The position numbers were made by a program, and so were the translations under genes. Shown piece by piece: positions 1,640 to 8,862 of a stretch of DNA of 64,000 nt. Source of the stretch: Thermodesulfobacterium geofontis OPF15 (GTDB lineage Bacteria; Desulfobacterota; Thermodesulfobacteria; Thermodesulfobacteriales; Thermodesulfobacteriaceae); contig NC_015682.1 in assembly GCF_000215975.1 (NCBI RefSeq), positions 806,001 to 870,000 on the forward strand, in the 5' to 3' direction. The notes beneath the pieces were generated by a model. The model searched no databases. It was not told the origin of the DNA and saw only the letters and a list, made by a program, of their open reading frames with translations. The number at the start of each line of letters is the position of its first letter. The first letter of the stretch is position 1.

Positions 1640-1882
1640 TACAAAAATATCATATAAACTAAAATTTTGAAACAGCCTCCAATTGTACTTGACAAAAATG
1701 AATGTGATGTTTTAATTGAACTTGTTAGAAAAGTTAGTGAAAATGCAAACTTGTGGCTGTGTTTACAAAAACTTTACCTCAACAGATACGGCTTTGTTTA
1801 ATCTGTATCTGTCGTCACTGTTGTCAGTCTCTTTTTTTTCGTTTTTGTTGTTTTTTCTTGTTTTCCTTTTGTTCATTTCCAC
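1640..1882. other. non-coding element end next to the tRNA fragment
   Basis: This 243-base stretch contains no convincing gene. It holds an 8-bp inverted repeat, ACAGATAC (1782-1789) and GTATCTGT (1805-1812), separated by 15 bases, then a long pyrimidine-rich tract (about 1826-1880). It abuts the tRNA-Asp fragment, where integrase arm sites would be expected if this is an integrated element. That role is inferred. Confidence 0.4.
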
Positions 1883-1925
1883 CTGTCACGCAGGAGGTCG
1901 CGGGTTCAAGTCCCGTCAGCCCCGC
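1883..1925 (+). pseudogene. 3' half of tRNA-Asp (GTC), likely displaced attachment site
   Basis: The sequence reproduces a bacterial tRNA-Asp from the anticodon loop CTGTCAC (1883-1889) through the 3' anticodon stem, variable loop, T-arm with GGTTCAAGTCC, and the acceptor strand CAGCCCCG (1917-1924). The matching 5' half is absent: the bases before 1883 cannot pair with the anticodon stem and belong to an unrelated pyrimidine-rich tract. No CCA is encoded. A break exactly at the anticodon loop is the usual boundary for tyrosine-recombinase integration, which leaves an intact tRNA at one end of the element and a 3' fragment at the other. The intact copy is expected beyond the left edge. Confidence 0.85.
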
Positions 1926-1941
1926 TTTTTATTTTTTCTAT

Positions 1942-2745
1942 ATGGCAAATTTTACTTTTTCCCTTAAAAAATTTTTTCTTTTTCTCTTTTATCCCTCAAG
2001 TTTAATCCTCATCTTTTTTCTTCTAATTTCTATCTATGTAATTCTTGATAAAAGAAAGGGTAGGAGAAGATTTTTACTCTTTTTAGCTATTTTCCTTTAT
2101 TATTTTTCTTCTACTCCCTTTTTGCCTTATTTTCTTTTAAAACAATTGGAAAAGAATTATTCTATTCCTCCAAAAGAAGAAATAGCAAAGGTTAAAAATG
2201 TAGTAGTTCTTACTGGAAGAATATACGGAGAAGAAACTCTTAGTCCTGAGGAAAGGTTTTCTAGAGAAACCTTAGTAAGATTTCTGAAGGCTTTAGAATT
2301 AAAAAAACAATATCCTGACAAAAAAATCATACTTTTAGGTGGCTCCTATGAGGATAAAAATAATAAAGGGGCATCCTATTTAAAAATGTTAGCTGAAAAT
2401 TTTGGTTTTGAAGTTGAAGCCCTTGATGTACCACTTGATACTATTACCAGCGCAAAAATTTTAAAAGAATATTTATTAAAAAATGAAAAAAATGTGAATT
2501 CACCCTTTTTACTTTTAACTTCTGCTTATCATCTTCCAAGAGCTTACTATCTTTTTAAAAAAGAAGGTTTAAATCCTATTCCTTATCCCACTAATTATAG
2601 TTATAAACTTTGTAAGCCCTCTTTTAGTATTTGGAAATTTTTACCTAATGATTTATATATTGATTTAACTAACAGAGCAACTCATGAATACTTAGCTTTA
2701 GGTTTTTACAAAATGAAATATTTTATTTTGGAGAAATTCAAATGA
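1942..2745 (+). CDS. DUF218 (YdcF/ElyC-like) membrane-anchored protein
   Basis: A 267-residue protein. Residues about 10-60 form two hydrophobic helices; the DUF218 domain follows, with Val-Val-Val-Leu-Thr-Gly-Arg at its start and Leu-Thr-Ser-Ala-Tyr-His-Leu-Pro-Arg near residue 195. Family members (SanA, ElyC, YdcF) act at the cell envelope, often in peptidoglycan or lipid-carrier metabolism; the exact activity here is unknown. The frame is open back to 1753, but that part translates the tRNA-Asp fragment, so the ATG at 1942 is chosen. Its stop overlaps the gmhA start (ATGA), so the two are probably co-translated. Confidence 0.75.
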   Translation: MANFTFSLKKFFLFLFYPSSLILIFFLLISIYVILDKRKGRRRFLLFLAIFLYYFSSTPFLPYFLLKQLEKNYSIPPKEEIAKVKNVVVLTGRIYGEETLSPEERFSRETLVRFLKALELKKQYPDKKIILLGGSYEDKNNKGASYLKMLAENFGFEVEALDVPLDTITSAKILKEYLLKNEKNVNSPFLLLTSAYHLPRAYYLFKKEGLNPIPYPTNYSYKLCKPSFSIWKFLPNDLYIDLTNRATHEYLALGFYKMKYFILEKFK

Positions 2746-3329
2746 AAAAGATAGATTTAAAAAAGAAAATTTTTAATATTTTAGAAACTTCAAGAGAAGT
2801 TCAAAAGAAATTTATAGAGCTTGAAACAGAAAAGATTATAGAAGTGGTTCTTCTTGCTAAAAAAGTTATTTCAAGAAATGGAAAAATTCTTATTTTTGGG
2901 AATGGAGGAAGTGCAGCGGATGCTCAGCATTTAGCTGCTGAGCTTGTTAATCGTTTTAAAAAAGAAAGAGCCCCTTTACCAGCAATTGCTTTAACTACAG
3001 ATACTTCAATTTTAACTGCTATAGCAAATGATTATGATTTTTCTCAAATTTTTTCTAAACAAATTTTAGCCTTAGGTAAAAAAGGAGATATGGCTCTTGG
3101 AATTAGTACCAGTGGAAAATCTTCTAATGTAATATCTGCTTTAAAGGTGGCTAAGGAAATAGGTTTATATACAGTGGGCTTAAGTGGAGGAGATGGAGGA
3201 TTAATGAAAGATGTATGTGATTATCTTATTTTAGTCCCAAGTTTTGAAACACCTCGTATTCAAGAGGGACATCTTTTATTTTTACATATCTTTTCTGAAC
3301 TTTTAGAAGAAATTATTTTTTCTCAATAA
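2742..3329 (+). CDS. gmhA: phosphoheptose (sedoheptulose 7-phosphate) isomerase
   Basis: This cytoplasmic enzyme converts sedoheptulose 7-phosphate to heptose 7-phosphate, the first step to ADP-heptose for the LPS inner core. The 195 residues match the family length. Visible motifs are GNGGSAADAQH (53-63) and STSGKS (122-127), which bind the phosphate sugar in the SIS fold, and TPRIQEGHLLFLH (170-182), which carries the Gln and His metal ligands. A GGAG site precedes the ATG, which overlaps the upstream stop by four bases. tsaD follows after two bases. It indicates an LPS-bearing outer membrane. Confidence 0.93.
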   Translation: MKKIDLKKKIFNILETSREVQKKFIELETEKIIEVVLLAKKVISRNGKILIFGNGGSAADAQHLAAELVNRFKKERAPLPAIALTTDTSILTAIANDYDFSQIFSKQILALGKKGDMALGISTSGKSSNVISALKVAKEIGLYTVGLSGGDGGLMKDVCDYLILVPSFETPRIQEGHLLFLHIFSELLEEIIFSQ

Positions 3330-3331
3330 AG

Positions 3332-4342
3332 ATGCTTCTTGCTATAGAAACTTCTTGTGATGAAACAGGAGTTGCCCTTTTTTCTGAAAAGGGGAATTTA
3401 ATAAAACATCTTCTTTATTCCCAAGTAGCTCTTCATTCTCCTTTTGGAGGTATAGTTCCTGAAATTGCTTCACGTAAACAATTAGAGGTTCTTTCTCCTC
3501 TTATAAAAAAATTAGTAGAAGAAACAAAAATTTCTATTCAAGAAATTAAGGGAGTATGTGTAACTTTTGGTCCTGGGCTTATAGGTTCAATTTTAGTAGG
3601 TGTTTCGTTAGCAAAGGCATTGTGTTTTGCTCTTAAAATTCCTCTCTTCGCAGTTGATCATTTACAAGCTCATCTCTTTTCTATATTTTTAGAAAGGGAA
3701 GTAAAATTTCCCTACATAGGACTTCTTGTTTCTGGTGGGCATACAGCTCTTTTTTTAGTAAATTCTTGGGAGGATTATAAACTTTTAGGACATACAAGAG
3801 ATGATGCAGCTGGAGAAGCCTTTGATAAAGTAGCTAAACTCCTTAATCTTTCTTATCCAGGAGGTCCTATTATAAGTAAACTTGCAGAAAAAGGGAATAG
3901 AAATGCTATTTCCTTCCCTAGACCGCTTTTAGAAGAAGATACTTTTGATTTTAGTTTTTCAGGGCTTAAAACAGCTGTCTTAAATTATTTAAAAACAAAT
4001 CCCCAGTATAAAATTGAGGATGTATGTGCAAGTTTTGAAGAGGCAGTTTGTGAAGTTCTAATAGAAAAAACCCTAAGGGCAGGTGAAAAACTAAATATTT
4101 CAAGAATTGTAGTTGTAGGAGGAGTAGCTTCCAATCAAAGATTAAGAAAATCTTTTGCTGAAAAGGCTCAACAAAAAGGGGTTGAGGTTTATTTTCCTTC
4201 TCCAGAATTTTGTACTGATAATGCTGCTATGGTGGGAATAGTGGGATATTACAAATGGAAAAATGGGCTTTATGATACTTTAGAAAAGGAACCCTATGCA
4301 AGGTCAATCTTTAAGAAATTTAATTTTCAAATTCAGCCTTGA
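3332..4342 (+). CDS. tsaD: tRNA N6-adenosine threonylcarbamoyltransferase TsaD
   Basis: TsaD transfers threonylcarbamoyl from threonylcarbamoyl-AMP to A37 of ANN-reading tRNAs. At 336 residues it is full length. The ASKHA fold opens with AIETSCDETG; the metal-binding pair is H110 and H114 in VDHLQAH, and SGGHTAL and GGVASN follow in the expected order. The start lies two bases after gmhA and has no clear Shine-Dalgarno, so translational coupling is likely. The last 23 bases overlap the convergent regulator gene. Confidence 0.95.
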   Translation: MLLAIETSCDETGVALFSEKGNLIKHLLYSQVALHSPFGGIVPEIASRKQLEVLSPLIKKLVEETKISIQEIKGVCVTFGPGLIGSILVGVSLAKALCFALKIPLFAVDHLQAHLFSIFLEREVKFPYIGLLVSGGHTALFLVNSWEDYKLLGHTRDDAAGEAFDKVAKLLNLSYPGGPIISKLAEKGNRNAISFPRPLLEEDTFDFSFSGLKTAVLNYLKTNPQYKIEDVCASFEEAVCEVLIEKTLRAGEKLNISRIVVVGGVASNQRLRKSFAEKAQQKGVEVYFPSPEFCTDNAAMVGIVGYYKWKNGLYDTLEKEPYARSIFKKFNFQIQP

Positions 4343-5702
4343 GATTAAATTCCTTTATTTTTTTCTGTAAATAAGCTCTTTCCAAACCTATTTCTCTTGC
4401 TGTTTTAGAAATATTTCCTCCGTATTCAAGAAGCTTTCTTTTTAAAAATTCCTTTTCAAAAAGGAGTTTAGCTAATCTGTAATTTTTTTCTTTAAACCAT
4501 GGCTCTGTATTTTCTTGCAAGCTTTCTTTCTTTTTTATTAAATTTTTAAAATCAGAAGGTAAATCTTTATAACTAATTTCAGAAGAAGAAGATATTATTA
4601 CTAATCTTTCTATAAAATTTTTAAGCTCCCTTACATTTCCTGGCCAATCATATTCCATTAAAGCTTCTAAGGCATCACTTTTAATAATTTTCTTCTCACA
4701 ACCTATCTTATAGCTAAATTCTTCTAAAAATTCTTCTACTAATATAGGAATATCTTCTTTTCTTTCTCTTAAAGGAGGAATAAAGATGGGGAAGACGTTT
4801 ATTCTAAAAAAGAGATCCTCTCTAAATTTTCCTTTTTGGATTTCTTTTAATAAATCCTTATTAGTGGCTGAAATTATTCTTACATCAATTTCTATAGATT
4901 TATTACTTCCTAAACGTTCAAATCTTTTTTCTTGTAAAACTCTTAATAATTTTGCTTGGGCATCAAGGCTTAAATCTCCTATTTCATCCAAAAAAAGGGT
5001 TCCTTTATGTGCTAATTCAAGCTTTCCTTTTTTAAAACTTTGAGCTCCTGTGAAAGCTCCTTTTTCATATCCAAAAAGTTCAGATTCTATAAGGGTTTCA
5101 GGAATAGCTGCACAATTTATTTCTACAAAAGCTTCTTTTGCTCTTTTTGAATATAAATGAATTAATTTTGCCACTATCTCTTTACCAACCCCAGATTCTC
5201 CCTGAATTAAAACAGTGGTATCTGTAGGAGCTGCTTTTAAAATAAGTTCTCTTATTTTTTGGATAGCAGGAGATACTCCAGAAAGTTTTACTTCTCCAAA
5301 AATGTTTTCTCTTAATCTTTTGTTTTCTTCTTCTAAGAGAGCTAACTTTAAAGCATTTTCTACAGTTACAATAACTCTTTCATAAGAAAGGGGTTTTTCA
5401 ATAAAATCAAAAGCCCCCATTTTGATTGCTTTTACTGCTGTCTCAATATTTCCATGCCCTGAAATTACTATAATTTGAACCTCTGGATAGGTTTTTTTGA
5501 TTTTTTCTAAAACCTCAAATCCATCTATATCTTTTAACCACAGATCAAGAAGAATGACCTTTGGTTGTTTAAAATTTATCTCTTTTAAAAGTTCCTTACC
5601 CCAAAGAAAACTTCTTACTTGAAAATTTTCATCTTTGAGAATATCTTCAAGGGTTTCAAGAATACCTTTTTCATCATCTAAAATCCAAATTTCACCCTTC
5701 AT
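4320..5702 (-). CDS. NtrC-family sigma-54-dependent response regulator
   Basis: A 460-residue activator with three parts: a receiver domain (1-120, phospho-acceptor D53 in LLDLWLKD, Lys in EKPLS near 104), an AAA+ sigma-54 activation domain (about 140-370, Walker A GESGVGKE at 168-175, GAFTGA loop at 215-220), and a Fis-type helix-turn-helix (about 420-455). The intact GAFTGA loop means it should remodel sigma-54 RNA polymerase. No histidine kinase gene is adjacent, so its partner is unknown. The mRNA is probably almost leaderless: a TTGACA/TATCAT promoter ends only 11 bases before the ATG. Confidence 0.93.
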   Translation of the reverse strand: MKGEIWILDDEKGILETLEDILKDENFQVRSFLWGKELLKEINFKQPKVILLDLWLKDIDGFEVLEKIKKTYPEVQIIVISGHGNIETAVKAIKMGAFDFIEKPLSYERVIVTVENALKLALLEEENKRLRENIFGEVKLSGVSPAIQKIRELILKAAPTDTTVLIQGESGVGKEIVAKLIHLYSKRAKEAFVEINCAAIPETLIESELFGYEKGAFTGAQSFKKGKLELAHKGTLFLDEIGDLSLDAQAKLLRVLQEKRFERLGSNKSIEIDVRIISATNKDLLKEIQKGKFREDLFFRINVFPIFIPPLRERKEDIPILVEEFLEEFSYKIGCEKKIIKSDALEALMEYDWPGNVRELKNFIERLVIISSSSEISYKDLPSDFKNLIKKKESLQENTEPWFKEKNYRLAKLLFEKEFLKRKLLEYGGNISKTAREIGLERAYLQKKIKEFNLKAEFEN

Positions 5703-5787: not shown

Positions 5788-5815
5788 TTAACATGTTAAC
5801 GTTAACCTTTAAAAT
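5788..5815 (+). promoter_or_regulatory. promoter of the bioY-receptor gene
   Basis: TTAACA (5788-5793), 16-base spacer, TAAAAT (5810-5815); predicted start near 5822. An alternative -35, TTGACA at 5775-5780, has no good -10 partner. The proposed BirA operator covers the -10 box and the start point, as expected for repression. Confidence 0.55.
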
Positions 5816-5831
5816 TAAAATTGGTTAACAA
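5799..5831. promoter_or_regulatory. BirA-type biotin operator
   Basis: Half-sites ACGTTAACC (5799-5807) and GGTTAACAA (5823-5831) are separated by exactly 15 bases. The known bacterial biotin operator is TTGTNAACC, 14-16 bases, GGTTNACAA; the right half fits and the left differs in its first two bases. Because it lies just before a bioY gene, repression by biotinyl-AMP-loaded BirA is the natural reading. birA is not in the window. Confidence 0.85.
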
Positions 5832-5836
5832 AATTT

Positions 5837-8212
5837 GTGGAGGGTTTAGTTATAGAAGCAAAAATTAAAAGAATAGCAATAGTAGATGTTATTTTGCCAA
5901 AAATTGAAAATAAAACTTTTGTTTTATTAAGAAACATTTTCTTAGTTTTAAGTTTTACTTTATTAACCGCAATTTCTGCTCAGTTAAAAATTGAGATTGG
6001 TCCGGTTCCAATTACAGGTCAAACTTTTGCAGTGTTACTTTGTGGAGCTTTGCTTGGAGCAAAAAGAGGTTTTTTATCTCAATTTTTTTATTTATTAGAA
6101 GGGTTAGCTGGAATTCCTTGGTTTGCTGGTGGAGGAGGAATTTCTTTTTTGGTTAGTCCATCTTTTGGCTACATTATTGGTTTTGTTTTAGCTGCTTTTG
6201 TAGTTGGGTTTTTGTGCGAAAGAGGTTTTGATAGAAGAATTACAACTGCAATTTTAGCAATGCTTGTTGGGAACATCTTAATCTATGCACCAGGGCTTTT
6301 ATGGTTGGCAAGATTTGTTGGTTGGGAAAAAGTATTAGCTTTTGGTCTTTATCCTTTCATAATTGGTGACATTCTTAAATTGCTTTTGGCAGCTTCAATC
6401 TTACCGTTAGGGTGGAGATTGCTTAAAAGAAAATATAGTGTTCTTTTTCTAATTTTGTTTTTAATTTGTACTCATCAAAGTGCTTTTTCTTCTGAAAAAC
6501 CTCTTTATACTTTGGAAAATGAAGAATCTGTCTATACTTTGGAAGAAGTAAAGGTTGTTTCTCCAGCAAAAGGTGCTGATCTTGAAAAAATAAGTCAAGA
6601 AGTAAAAGTGGTTAAAAAAGAAGAACTTTCAGAATTTGGTTTAAAGAAGGTTTTTTCAGCGCTTGAACTTAAAGAAAGAGGTACCTTTGGGGTTCAAGCT
6701 GACCTTTCTATTAGGGGAACAAGTTTTGAACAAAATTTGGTTGTTCTTGAAGGTATAAGAATTTCTGATCCTCAAACAGGGCATCATTTAATGAAATTAC
6801 CTTTAGAAGAAGACATTTTAGAAAGTTTAGAAATTCTTTCTGGAGGGGCAAGTGCTATTTATGGACCTGGAGGTTTTGGAGGTGCTATAAATTTCAATTT
6901 AGAACCATCCACTAAAGGATATAAAATTTTAGCTGAATACGGAAGTTATGATTACCAACATATATTTGGAAATTTTGGTTTTTCTACTTCTGAAATTCCA
7001 TTTAACTTAGTTTTTTCTCAAAAAAAATCAAATGGATTTATATGGAATAGAGATTTTGATATTAGAACTTTTAATCTATATAGCAAAGATGATAAAAAAA
7101 CTCTTTTTTACGGATTTCAAGAAAAAGATTTTGGAGCAAGAAATTTTTATATTACAAAATATGATACAGAATGGGAAAGTACAAAAACTCACTTATTTTT
7201 AGTTAAGAAAAATATATACAAAAATAACTGGTTTTTAGAGCCCACTTTACTTTATAGAATTAACTACGATTTATATCTTTTAGATAGAAAAAATCCAGAT
7301 TTTTATAAAAATACTCATAAATCTCAGGTTTTTCGCCTTAATTTTCCTTTAAGATATGAAAGAACTTATATGGATTATCTTTTGGGGGTAGAAGTTTCTT
7401 ATGAGACACTTGAGAGTTCAAGACTCGGTGATCATTTAAGGCAATCTACAGGATTTTATTTTTGGTTATATCCTAAAATAAGTTTACGATTTTTTCCGAG
7501 CTTTGGGATTCGTTATGATGTTATAACCCAAAATAAAGATATTTTTACTTATAATTTGGGATTTGCCTATCTTTTAAAGGAAGACCTAAAATTAAGAAGT
7601 TCTTTCAGTTTTTCCTATAGAATACCAAGTTTTACAGAATTTTATTATGATTCTCCTACTATTAAAGGAAATCCCTCCTTATCACCTGAAAAAGCTTATA
7701 ATATTTCTGTTGGATTTGACTATTACAAAAATAAAATCAATTTTTCTGGAACAGGTTTTTATAGGTACGGAAAGGATATTATAGACTGGATTAAAAAAGA
7801 AAACATAATTCAGGCTCAAAATATAGAAATTTTAAAAACCGTTGGATTTACCTTAGACAGTAACATAATTTTTAAAAATTTTAAACCCTTTATAAGTTAT
7901 ACCTATTTAAATCAAATAGCTGAAAAATTACCAAGTGCCCGTTATTCTGGAAGTTATTTAAGACACAATTTTATTTTAGGAATAATATATAACCTTCCTT
8001 GGCATTGGGAATTTTTTGGAAGTTTAAATTATAGAGAATATTACAAAAGAGATAAAATATTTTTGGTAGATTTAAAAATAAAGAAAAAATTTGGCAAAAA
8101 TCTAACTTATTCTTTTTGGATAAAAAATCTTTTGGATGAGGATTATAAAGAGATAGGAGAGGTCAAGGCACCTCCTCAATGGATAGGTATTAATTTAGAA
8201 ATAAGATTTTAA
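5837..8212 (+). CDS. BioY biotin transporter fused to a TonB-dependent receptor
   Basis: One uninterrupted 791-residue frame encodes two proteins end to end. Residues about 25-195 are a complete six-helix BioY, the biotin-binding S component of ECF transporters, with GPVPITGQTF and the Gly-rich region near 96-101. Residues about 195-218 look like a signal peptide (Lys-Arg-Lys, hydrophobic run, Ala-Phe-Ser). Residues about 219-791 are a small BtuB-like receptor: TonB-box-like VYTLEEVKVVS near 232-242, a plug with DLSIRGTSFEQN, then a 22-strand-type barrel ending in Arg-Phe. BioY should end in the cytoplasm, so the internal signal could act as a seventh helix and be cut by signal peptidase. An internal TTG at 6419 could separately start the receptor. 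GTG at 5837 is the only standard start but lacks an SD; GGAGGG (5839-5844) points instead to ATA at 5852. Confidence 0.88.
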   Translation: MEGLVIEAKIKRIAIVDVILPKIENKTFVLLRNIFLVLSFTLLTAISAQLKIEIGPVPITGQTFAVLLCGALLGAKRGFLSQFFYLLEGLAGIPWFAGGGGISFLVSPSFGYIIGFVLAAFVVGFLCERGFDRRITTAILAMLVGNILIYAPGLLWLARFVGWEKVLAFGLYPFIIGDILKLLLAASILPLGWRLLKRKYSVLFLILFLICTHQSAFSSEKPLYTLENEESVYTLEEVKVVSPAKGADLEKISQEVKVVKKEELSEFGLKKVFSALELKERGTFGVQADLSIRGTSFEQNLVVLEGIRISDPQTGHHLMKLPLEEDILESLEILSGGASAIYGPGGFGGAINFNLEPSTKGYKILAEYGSYDYQHIFGNFGFSTSEIPFNLVFSQKKSNGFIWNRDFDIRTFNLYSKDDKKTLFYGFQEKDFGARNFYITKYDTEWESTKTHLFLVKKNIYKNNWFLEPTLLYRINYDLYLLDRKNPDFYKNTHKSQVFRLNFPLRYERTYMDYLLGVEVSYETLESSRLGDHLRQSTGFYFWLYPKISLRFFPSFGIRYDVITQNKDIFTYNLGFAYLLKEDLKLRSSFSFSYRIPSFTEFYYDSPTIKGNPSLSPEKAYNISVGFDYYKNKINFSGTGFYRYGKDIIDWIKKENIIQAQNIEILKTVGFTLDSNIIFKNFKPFISYTYLNQIAEKLPSARYSGSYLRHNFILGIIYNLPWHWEFFGSLNYREYYKRDKIFLVDLKIKKKFGKNLTYSFWIKNLLDEDYKEIGEVKAPPQWIGINLEIRF
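5839..5844 (+). promoter_or_regulatory. Shine-Dalgarno that points to an ATA start
   Basis: GGAGGG is followed after seven bases by ATA (5852-5854), in frame with bioY and giving Glu-Ala-Lys-Ile-Lys as the next residues. No ATG, GTG or TTG lies at a usable distance. Either ATA is the start codon, or the ATG was altered by mutation or sequence error. Confidence 0.5.
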
Positions 8213-8403: not shown

Positions 8404-8859
8404 ATGAAAAGCACAAAAAACATAGAAAAATTTGAATATGGTTTTGGTCAGCATCTCATTATTGATGGATATGGAGCTAATCGTGAAAAACTTATGGATC
8501 TCGATTTTATATATAATTTTTTAAGTAAATATCCAGAAGAAATTCAAATGACCAAAATAATGCCTCCTTATGTTTTTAAATATTACGCTCCTGTTCCTGA
8601 AGATTGGGGAATTTCTGGATTTGTAATTATTGCTGAAAGTCATATAAGTATTCATACCTTTCCAGAAAAATTATATTTAAGTGTAGATGTATTTTCTTGT
8701 AAGCCCTTTGATGTAGATAAAGCTATAAAAGACATTATAGAAATTTTTGAAATTAAAAAAAGTGAAATAAAGTTTTTTGATAGAGGCTTAGAATTTCCTC
8801 GTTCTATCAGAGCAGTTGAAAACTTTATTCGTATGGAAAGGAAGGATTTAATAATATAA
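8404..8859 (+). CDS. speD: S-adenosylmethionine decarboxylase proenzyme
   Basis: SpeD cleaves itself to form a pyruvoyl group and decarboxylates S-adenosylmethionine, giving the aminopropyl donor for spermidine-type polyamines. The 151 residues are close to the small prokaryotic form. The self-cleavage site is E78-S79 in AESHISIHT, and the conserved His (84) and Cys (99, in VFSCKPF) are in place. It has its own promoter and a strong Shine-Dalgarno, and heads the long same-strand array. speB follows after three bases; no spermidine synthase gene is in the window. Confidence 0.93.
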   Translation: MKSTKNIEKFEYGFGQHLIIDGYGANREKLMDLDFIYNFLSKYPEEIQMTKIMPPYVFKYYAPVPEDWGISGFVIIAESHISIHTFPEKLYLSVDVFSCKPFDVDKAIKDIIEIFEIKKSEIKFFDRGLEFPRSIRAVENFIRMERKDLII

Positions 8860-8862
8860 AAA

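Follow-up and report, generated by a model that had tools for sequence, protein, structure and literature searches.

A single reading frame joining BioY to a TonB-dependent receptor in Thermodesulfobacterium geofontis, probably an outer-membrane receptor for biotin

In the genome of Thermodesulfobacterium geofontis OPF15, one contig of 1,634,377 bases, a single open frame starts with BioY, passes through a signal peptide and finishes with a TonB-dependent receptor. It lies in the window, the 64,000-nucleotide stretch of DNA analysed here (806001–870000 of the contig), begins with GTG and runs for 791 amino acids with zero internal stops in its translation. The features of the locus, in window coordinates, are:

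5799–5831, no strand assigned: palindromic BirA-type operator box, ACGTTAACC-N15-GGTTAACAA, 5 bases 5′ of the GTG (position weight matrix)
5837–8212, plus strand: fused gene, BioY + signal peptide + TonB-dependent receptor, 791 aa (open reading frame, Pfam)
5837–6433, plus strand: BioY part, residues 1–199, helices to about residue 197, exact start uncertain (PF02632, AlphaFold, match to 4dve)
6419–6490, plus strand: internal signal peptide, residues 195–218, LLKRKYSVLFLILFLICTHQSAFS, predicted cut AFS↓SE (alignment with standalone receptors, AlphaFold helix)
6491–8209, plus strand: mature receptor part, residues 219–791 (BLAST to standalone receptors; BtuB-like fold)
6581–6886, plus strand: Plug domain, residues 249–350 (PF07715, E 6.2e-11)
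6947–8131, plus strand: beta-barrel, residues 371–765 as delimited by Pfam (PF00593, E 2.7e-22; AlphaFold strands to the terminal Phe)

The initial annotation had proposed, from the nucleotide sequence alone, that one frame of 791 codons holds a complete BioY, a signal peptide and a complete receptor, and Pfam and AlphaFold agree on this arrangement. A chance open frame is ruled out and the frame is real, because both halves are intact homologues, the receptor half matches a standalone orthologue at 76% identity, and its dN/dS against two unfused relatives is 0.14–0.16. No ribosome-binding site precedes GTG 5837 and GGAGGG lies directly 3′ of it; the true BioY start may be downstream of this codon, or the message may be leaderless.

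PF02632 matches residues 54–191 of the BioY half (E 3.8e-43, 147 bits against a cut-off of 25) over model positions 1–137 of 140, and an AlphaFold model of residues 1–231 gives its helices pLDDT values mostly above 90. The best PDB match of this half is the biotin S component 4dve, the BioY of L. lactis (TM 0.76 on the target), and the six-helix fold of S components is found both in the model and in this match. Shared with 4dve and other BioY proteins, the S components of biotin ECF transporters, are the six helices and the conserved Asp and Lys of the last helix (here D178 and K181), and the motif PVPxTxQT is kept; known BioY proteins differ in lacking the signal peptide and complete receptor that extend the T. 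geofontis C-terminus. No dedicated EcfT/EcfA adjoins the fused gene, and BioY is probably either solitary or partnered by a metal-type EcfT/EcfA, because the sole EcfT of the genome lies within a cbiM/nikM-like metal cluster. The window BioY shares 34–38% identity with the bioY products of four congeners and ~42% with an Omnitrophota counterpart, so that a lateral arrival of bioY in T. geofontis is possible.

The two halves meet without a linker. Elsewhere in the family, BioYs carry a short basic tail soon after the last helix; in the window this tail, RLLKRK, is followed at once by the hydrophobic core VLFLILFLIC and then by the site SAFS↓SE, which in the alignment matches SALS↓SE of the standalone receptors in two relatives (G008 and G012). 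The basic KRK of the BioY tail doubles as the n-region of the signal peptide. In the AlphaFold model the chain breaks at residues 198–200 and continues as a separate helix, 201–219, corresponding to the signal peptide. An internal signal-peptide-like segment at about residues 195–218 had been predicted in the initial annotation and is upheld by the site and the helix; TTG 6419 is residue 195, as indicated there. A lipoprotein signal at LFLIC was considered and rejected, since position −1 is Ile. We infer a single precursor that would be cleaved after AFS, the predicted mature receptor beginning SSEKPLYTLENEE...

A competing account is that the frame yields two products, BioY with the receptor attached or degraded, and a receptor separately initiated at TTG 6419. 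This codon is the only plausible internal start and aligns within one codon of the receptor start in relatives; the signal peptide counted from it is well formed, and the calculated anti-SD duplex of −7.9 kcal/mol is like that of some neighbouring genes. However, the only marked run of purines, GGAG, sits 1 base upstream of the TTG and too near for normal initiation, TTG is a weak start codon, and bioY has no stop, which precludes coupled re-initiation. We consider separate initiation unlikely, though it is the likeliest of the alternatives.

The receptor half is likewise complete. Both Pfam domains score over their curated cut-offs (PF07715, 43 bits; PF00593, 81 bits), the barrel match reaches the final position of its profile, and the protein ends in ...LEIRF, with a terminal Phe; the signal peptide and terminal aromatic residue that mark a TonB-dependent receptor are both present, the former internally. 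By BLAST, this half is 48–77% identical to the standalone receptors of the family. The AlphaFold model is a plug-and-barrel (mean pLDDT 69, barrel mostly 70–90) that comes closest in fold to FepA, BtuB and other TonB-dependent transporters; size, plug, a 22-strand-type barrel and the terminal Phe are all shared with BtuB-type receptors. The receptor half shows no sign of decay after fusion and has stayed under purifying selection: dN/dS (NG86) is 0.16 and 0.14 against two unfused relatives and 0.13 between those relatives, and in the receptor tree the terminal branch leading to the window is as long as that of its sister ZAV-08 (0.18 each).

The search of related genomes for the same joint frame that the initial annotation suggested gave a negative result, the frame being absent from the other 13 of the 14 genomes of the genus searched, and bioY and the receptor gene are adjacent in no other genome of the genus. 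A BioY profile search of 395 genomes of the phylum, 86 of them with BioY above the cut-off, detected a frame longer than 355 aa only in the window; none of the other 85 BioY genomes had a receptor fusion, the second-longest BioY frame being 355 aa. Frames of 438–1636 aa in the phylum were rejected as BioY fusions, their matches being sub-threshold and just 44–46 residues long. A standalone receptor of ~590 aa, 59–76% identical, occurs in 11 of the 12 congeners of the first search and in five genomes of other genera of the family, and these receptors of relatives have their own start and their own signal peptide. In G008, G012 and G009 the receptor gene is located between the window's neighbours (a response regulator on one side, a 151-aa homologue of window 8404–8859 onward on the other); G002 and G004 retain this neighbourhood on one flank of the receptor. 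The receptor is old at this locus and bioY the newcomer, because relatives with a standalone receptor share the syntenic slot. In two relatives a DUF1284 gene is found just 5′ of the receptor, in the slot of the T. geofontis bioY (L033, ~6900–7240; L034, ~8470–8860); the DUF1284 gene of G012 is apparently broken by a stop.

The box at 5799–5831 scores 27.8 with a position weight matrix built from relatives' receptor promoters only; the runner-up in the window reaches 13.3, and no site in 30 random 64-kb sequences exceeds 19.0. The genome contains a single match to the pattern GTTAAC-N15..17-GGTTAAC. High-scoring boxes are located 5′ of the receptors of thirteen genomes (G001–G006, G009, G010, G013, G014, G020, G022 and G024); in G014 the box, ~60 bases before the receptor, was recovered across contigs 52 and 68, which overlap exactly (L076 end, L046 end), and for the G018 receptor the box lies inside the chosen frame, at its 5′ end. 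The only candidates in G008 and G012 are weak and far upstream, with the DUF1284 gene or its remnant in between. A box scoring 21.3 also lies ~60 bases before bioY in G001, G006 and G013, near-identical sequences that count as one event. Other candidate boxes, which relatives carry near moeA/porin, lactate permease and leuS, were not counted, being asymmetric or chance-like in sequence, and homology of the 5′ leaders of the fused gene and the ZAV-08 receptor gene beyond the box was rejected (local alignment 46.5 versus shuffles of up to 61).

For comparison, bioO of E. coli is TTGTAAACC-N16-GGTTTACAA. Two marks of a BirA regulon are found here, a promoter inverted repeat conserved in relatives and a host BirA with a DNA-binding domain; the latter combines PF08279, PF03099 and PF02237 in one protein and scores 60.6 bits with TIGR00122, slightly below the cut-off of 70. 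We infer that BirA binds the box at 5799–5831, because the box resembles E. coli bioO and boxes elsewhere adjoin birA.

No biotin synthase gene, bioB, scores over the curated cut-off in the T. geofontis genome, and the organism is apparently unable to make biotin. Of 41 genomes, 17 have the receptor, and 1 of these has bioB above the cut-off; of the 24 lacking the receptor, 18 do (Fisher p 1.6e-5, uncorrected for kinship); within the family alone the association has a Fisher p of 1.0e-3, likewise uncorrected. Receptor, BioY and bioB are all present in T. thermophilum (G001). Both BioY and bioB are absent from six receptor genomes (G002, G003, G004, G005, G008 and G009), which therefore would have another inner-membrane carrier or a receptor with a different substrate; receptor and BioY are not strictly tied. 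Membership of bioY in a bio operon was rejected for G001, G006, G010 and G013, where its neighbours encode a Kdo transferase and a laccase-like protein.

A GTDB search with the receptor alignment returned 71 loci, and in two independent lineages the receptor is associated with biotin genes. In a Candidatus Omnitrophota MAG (L104, JAPLLW010000011.1) birA with an HTH (1741–2700), a BirA-like box (2732), the receptor homologue (2785–4605) and bioY (4693–5259) are consecutive and separate, making 1741–5259 a candidate for a complete biotin uptake operon including its regulator. In an Elusimicrobia MAG (L139, 307–3579) birA with an HTH, a box, ATGTCAACC-N14-GGTTGACAA, and a TonB-dependent receptor homologue are consecutive. 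The L104 receptor is sister to those of the Thermodesulfobacteriaceae (95/89, on a long branch); that of L139 is a distant homologue. In the flanks examined, the Bacteroidota homologues had neither such a box nor bioY.

The link of the receptor to biotin, which was invisible in the initial annotation, thus emerges from the BirA-type box, the loss of bioB and the birA-box-receptor-bioY cluster of another phylum. The receptor is probably for biotin because of the BirA-type box, the general lack of bioB in receptor genomes and the L104 and L139 clusters; its likeliest substrate is biotin, or else a closely related precursor or conjugate. In T. geofontis this probable outer-membrane biotin receptor has become fused to BioY. 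That it carries some other substrate, such as B12, a siderophore or a sulphur compound, and that the fusion is accidental, seems improbable to us. The best named family is indeed the B12 receptor (TIGR01779, the BtuB equivalog), BtuB is among the nearest PDB proteins, and the receptor broadly resembles B12 and siderophore receptors. However, its 72.4 bits are far under the curated cut-off of 599.7, and B12-riboswitch control was rejected, as Rfam gives no cobalamin riboswitch match for the window or for the relatives' receptor loci; the receptor differs from BtuB in both respects and in its BirA-type box, and the boxes and the birA and bioY neighbours indicate biotin, the predicted substrate.

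Our preferred reading, which we hold to be reasonably likely, is that this one gene provides biotin import across two membranes, a BirA-repressed BioY and a TonB-dependent biotin receptor being made as one precursor that is cut by signal peptidase. On this reading, bioY has come to separate the receptor from its old BirA box and is joined in frame to the receptor's signal peptide. When biotin is plentiful, BirA with biotinyl-AMP would occupy the box at 5799–5831 and repress the fused gene; when it is scarce, BirA would leave the box and the fused gene would be made. Both termini of S components are cytoplasmic. The single polypeptide would be inserted co-translationally into the inner membrane with the C-terminus of BioY in the cytoplasm, the signal peptide would act as a seventh segment, signal peptidase would cleave after AFS, and the released receptor would be delivered to the outer membrane through the normal Bam pathway. 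On a broader claim we are evenly balanced: that TonB-dependent biotin receptors form a class under BirA control in several phyla, of which T. geofontis has a version made as a BioY polyprotein, cut by signal peptidase into inner- and outer-membrane products in a 1:1 ratio. On the best reading, the assignment of the receptor family to biotin is the more general finding and the fusion a rare variant of a single species.

A missed stop or a frameshift, with bioY and the receptor gene forming an ordinary two-gene operon, is very improbable. The fusion is known from a single sequence, and the two genes are separate in the Omnitrophota MAG. However, the genome was finished by JGI with ~3,740x Illumina and 37x 454 coverage (PMC3624685), and therefore an overlooked stop is unlikely. 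The lost stop codon that the initial annotation offered as an alternative is further disfavoured by the joint itself. BioY ends where other BioYs end, and the use of its KRK tail as n-region speaks against a stop merely missed: one in the same frame after the tail would remove the n-region, and the receptor would then lack a complete signal peptide, because the next in-frame start is TTG 6455, inside the hydrophobic core. There is no in-frame ATG or GTG between 6380 and 6530. That an uncleaved chain spans both membranes and passes biotin directly, as a single frame without a linker might suggest, is scarcely credible, given that the cut site is retained and that the barrel would have to reach the outer membrane with its N-terminus anchored in the inner one and just ~30 residues before the plug.

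Neither a TonB-dependent biotin receptor nor a BioY-receptor fusion turned up in a literature search, which was of partial coverage and is weak evidence of novelty. The closest mechanistic parallel known to us is fbcH of Bradyrhizobium, in which cytochrome b and cytochrome c1 are joined and cut by signal peptidase; here too a multi-helix inner-membrane protein is in frame with a signal peptide and an exported protein. Both fbcH products belong to one inner-membrane complex, whereas the second product of the T. geofontis fusion would be in the outer membrane, and the two systems are not homologous. If the fusion is as proposed, it is a natural polyprotein with products in different membranes, through which membrane insertion, signal-peptidase cutting and barrel targeting could be tested in one construct; it also supplies a Rosetta-stone (gene-fusion) argument for the function of a receptor family without a prior assignment.

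The crossing of the outer membrane by biotin is usually ascribed to porins. If the receptor carries biotin, active uptake across this membrane exists and the list of vitamins taken up through TonB, after B12 and thiamine, is extended; its gene would then be findable through a BirA-type box. In thiamine uptake by Bacteroides, OMthi and PnuT similarly link a TonB-dependent receptor for a small vitamin to an inner-membrane carrier (PMC6977713), but the vitamin and the carrier are different ones and the genes are separate. BirA regulons in Gram-positives include bioY as a target (PMC4016012, PMC6391492), and the biotin section of a paper on the Proteobacterial BirA regulon names no outer-membrane receptor (PMC5343134). 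The T. geofontis system has the inverted-repeat box, the BirA with an HTH and the bioY target in common with known BirA regulons and differs from them in the outer-membrane receptor as an additional predicted target. A second biotin ligase, which has no DNA-binding domain, was observed beside an apparent acetyl-CoA carboxylase carboxyltransferase gene (L063, G000:C1 ~1271000).
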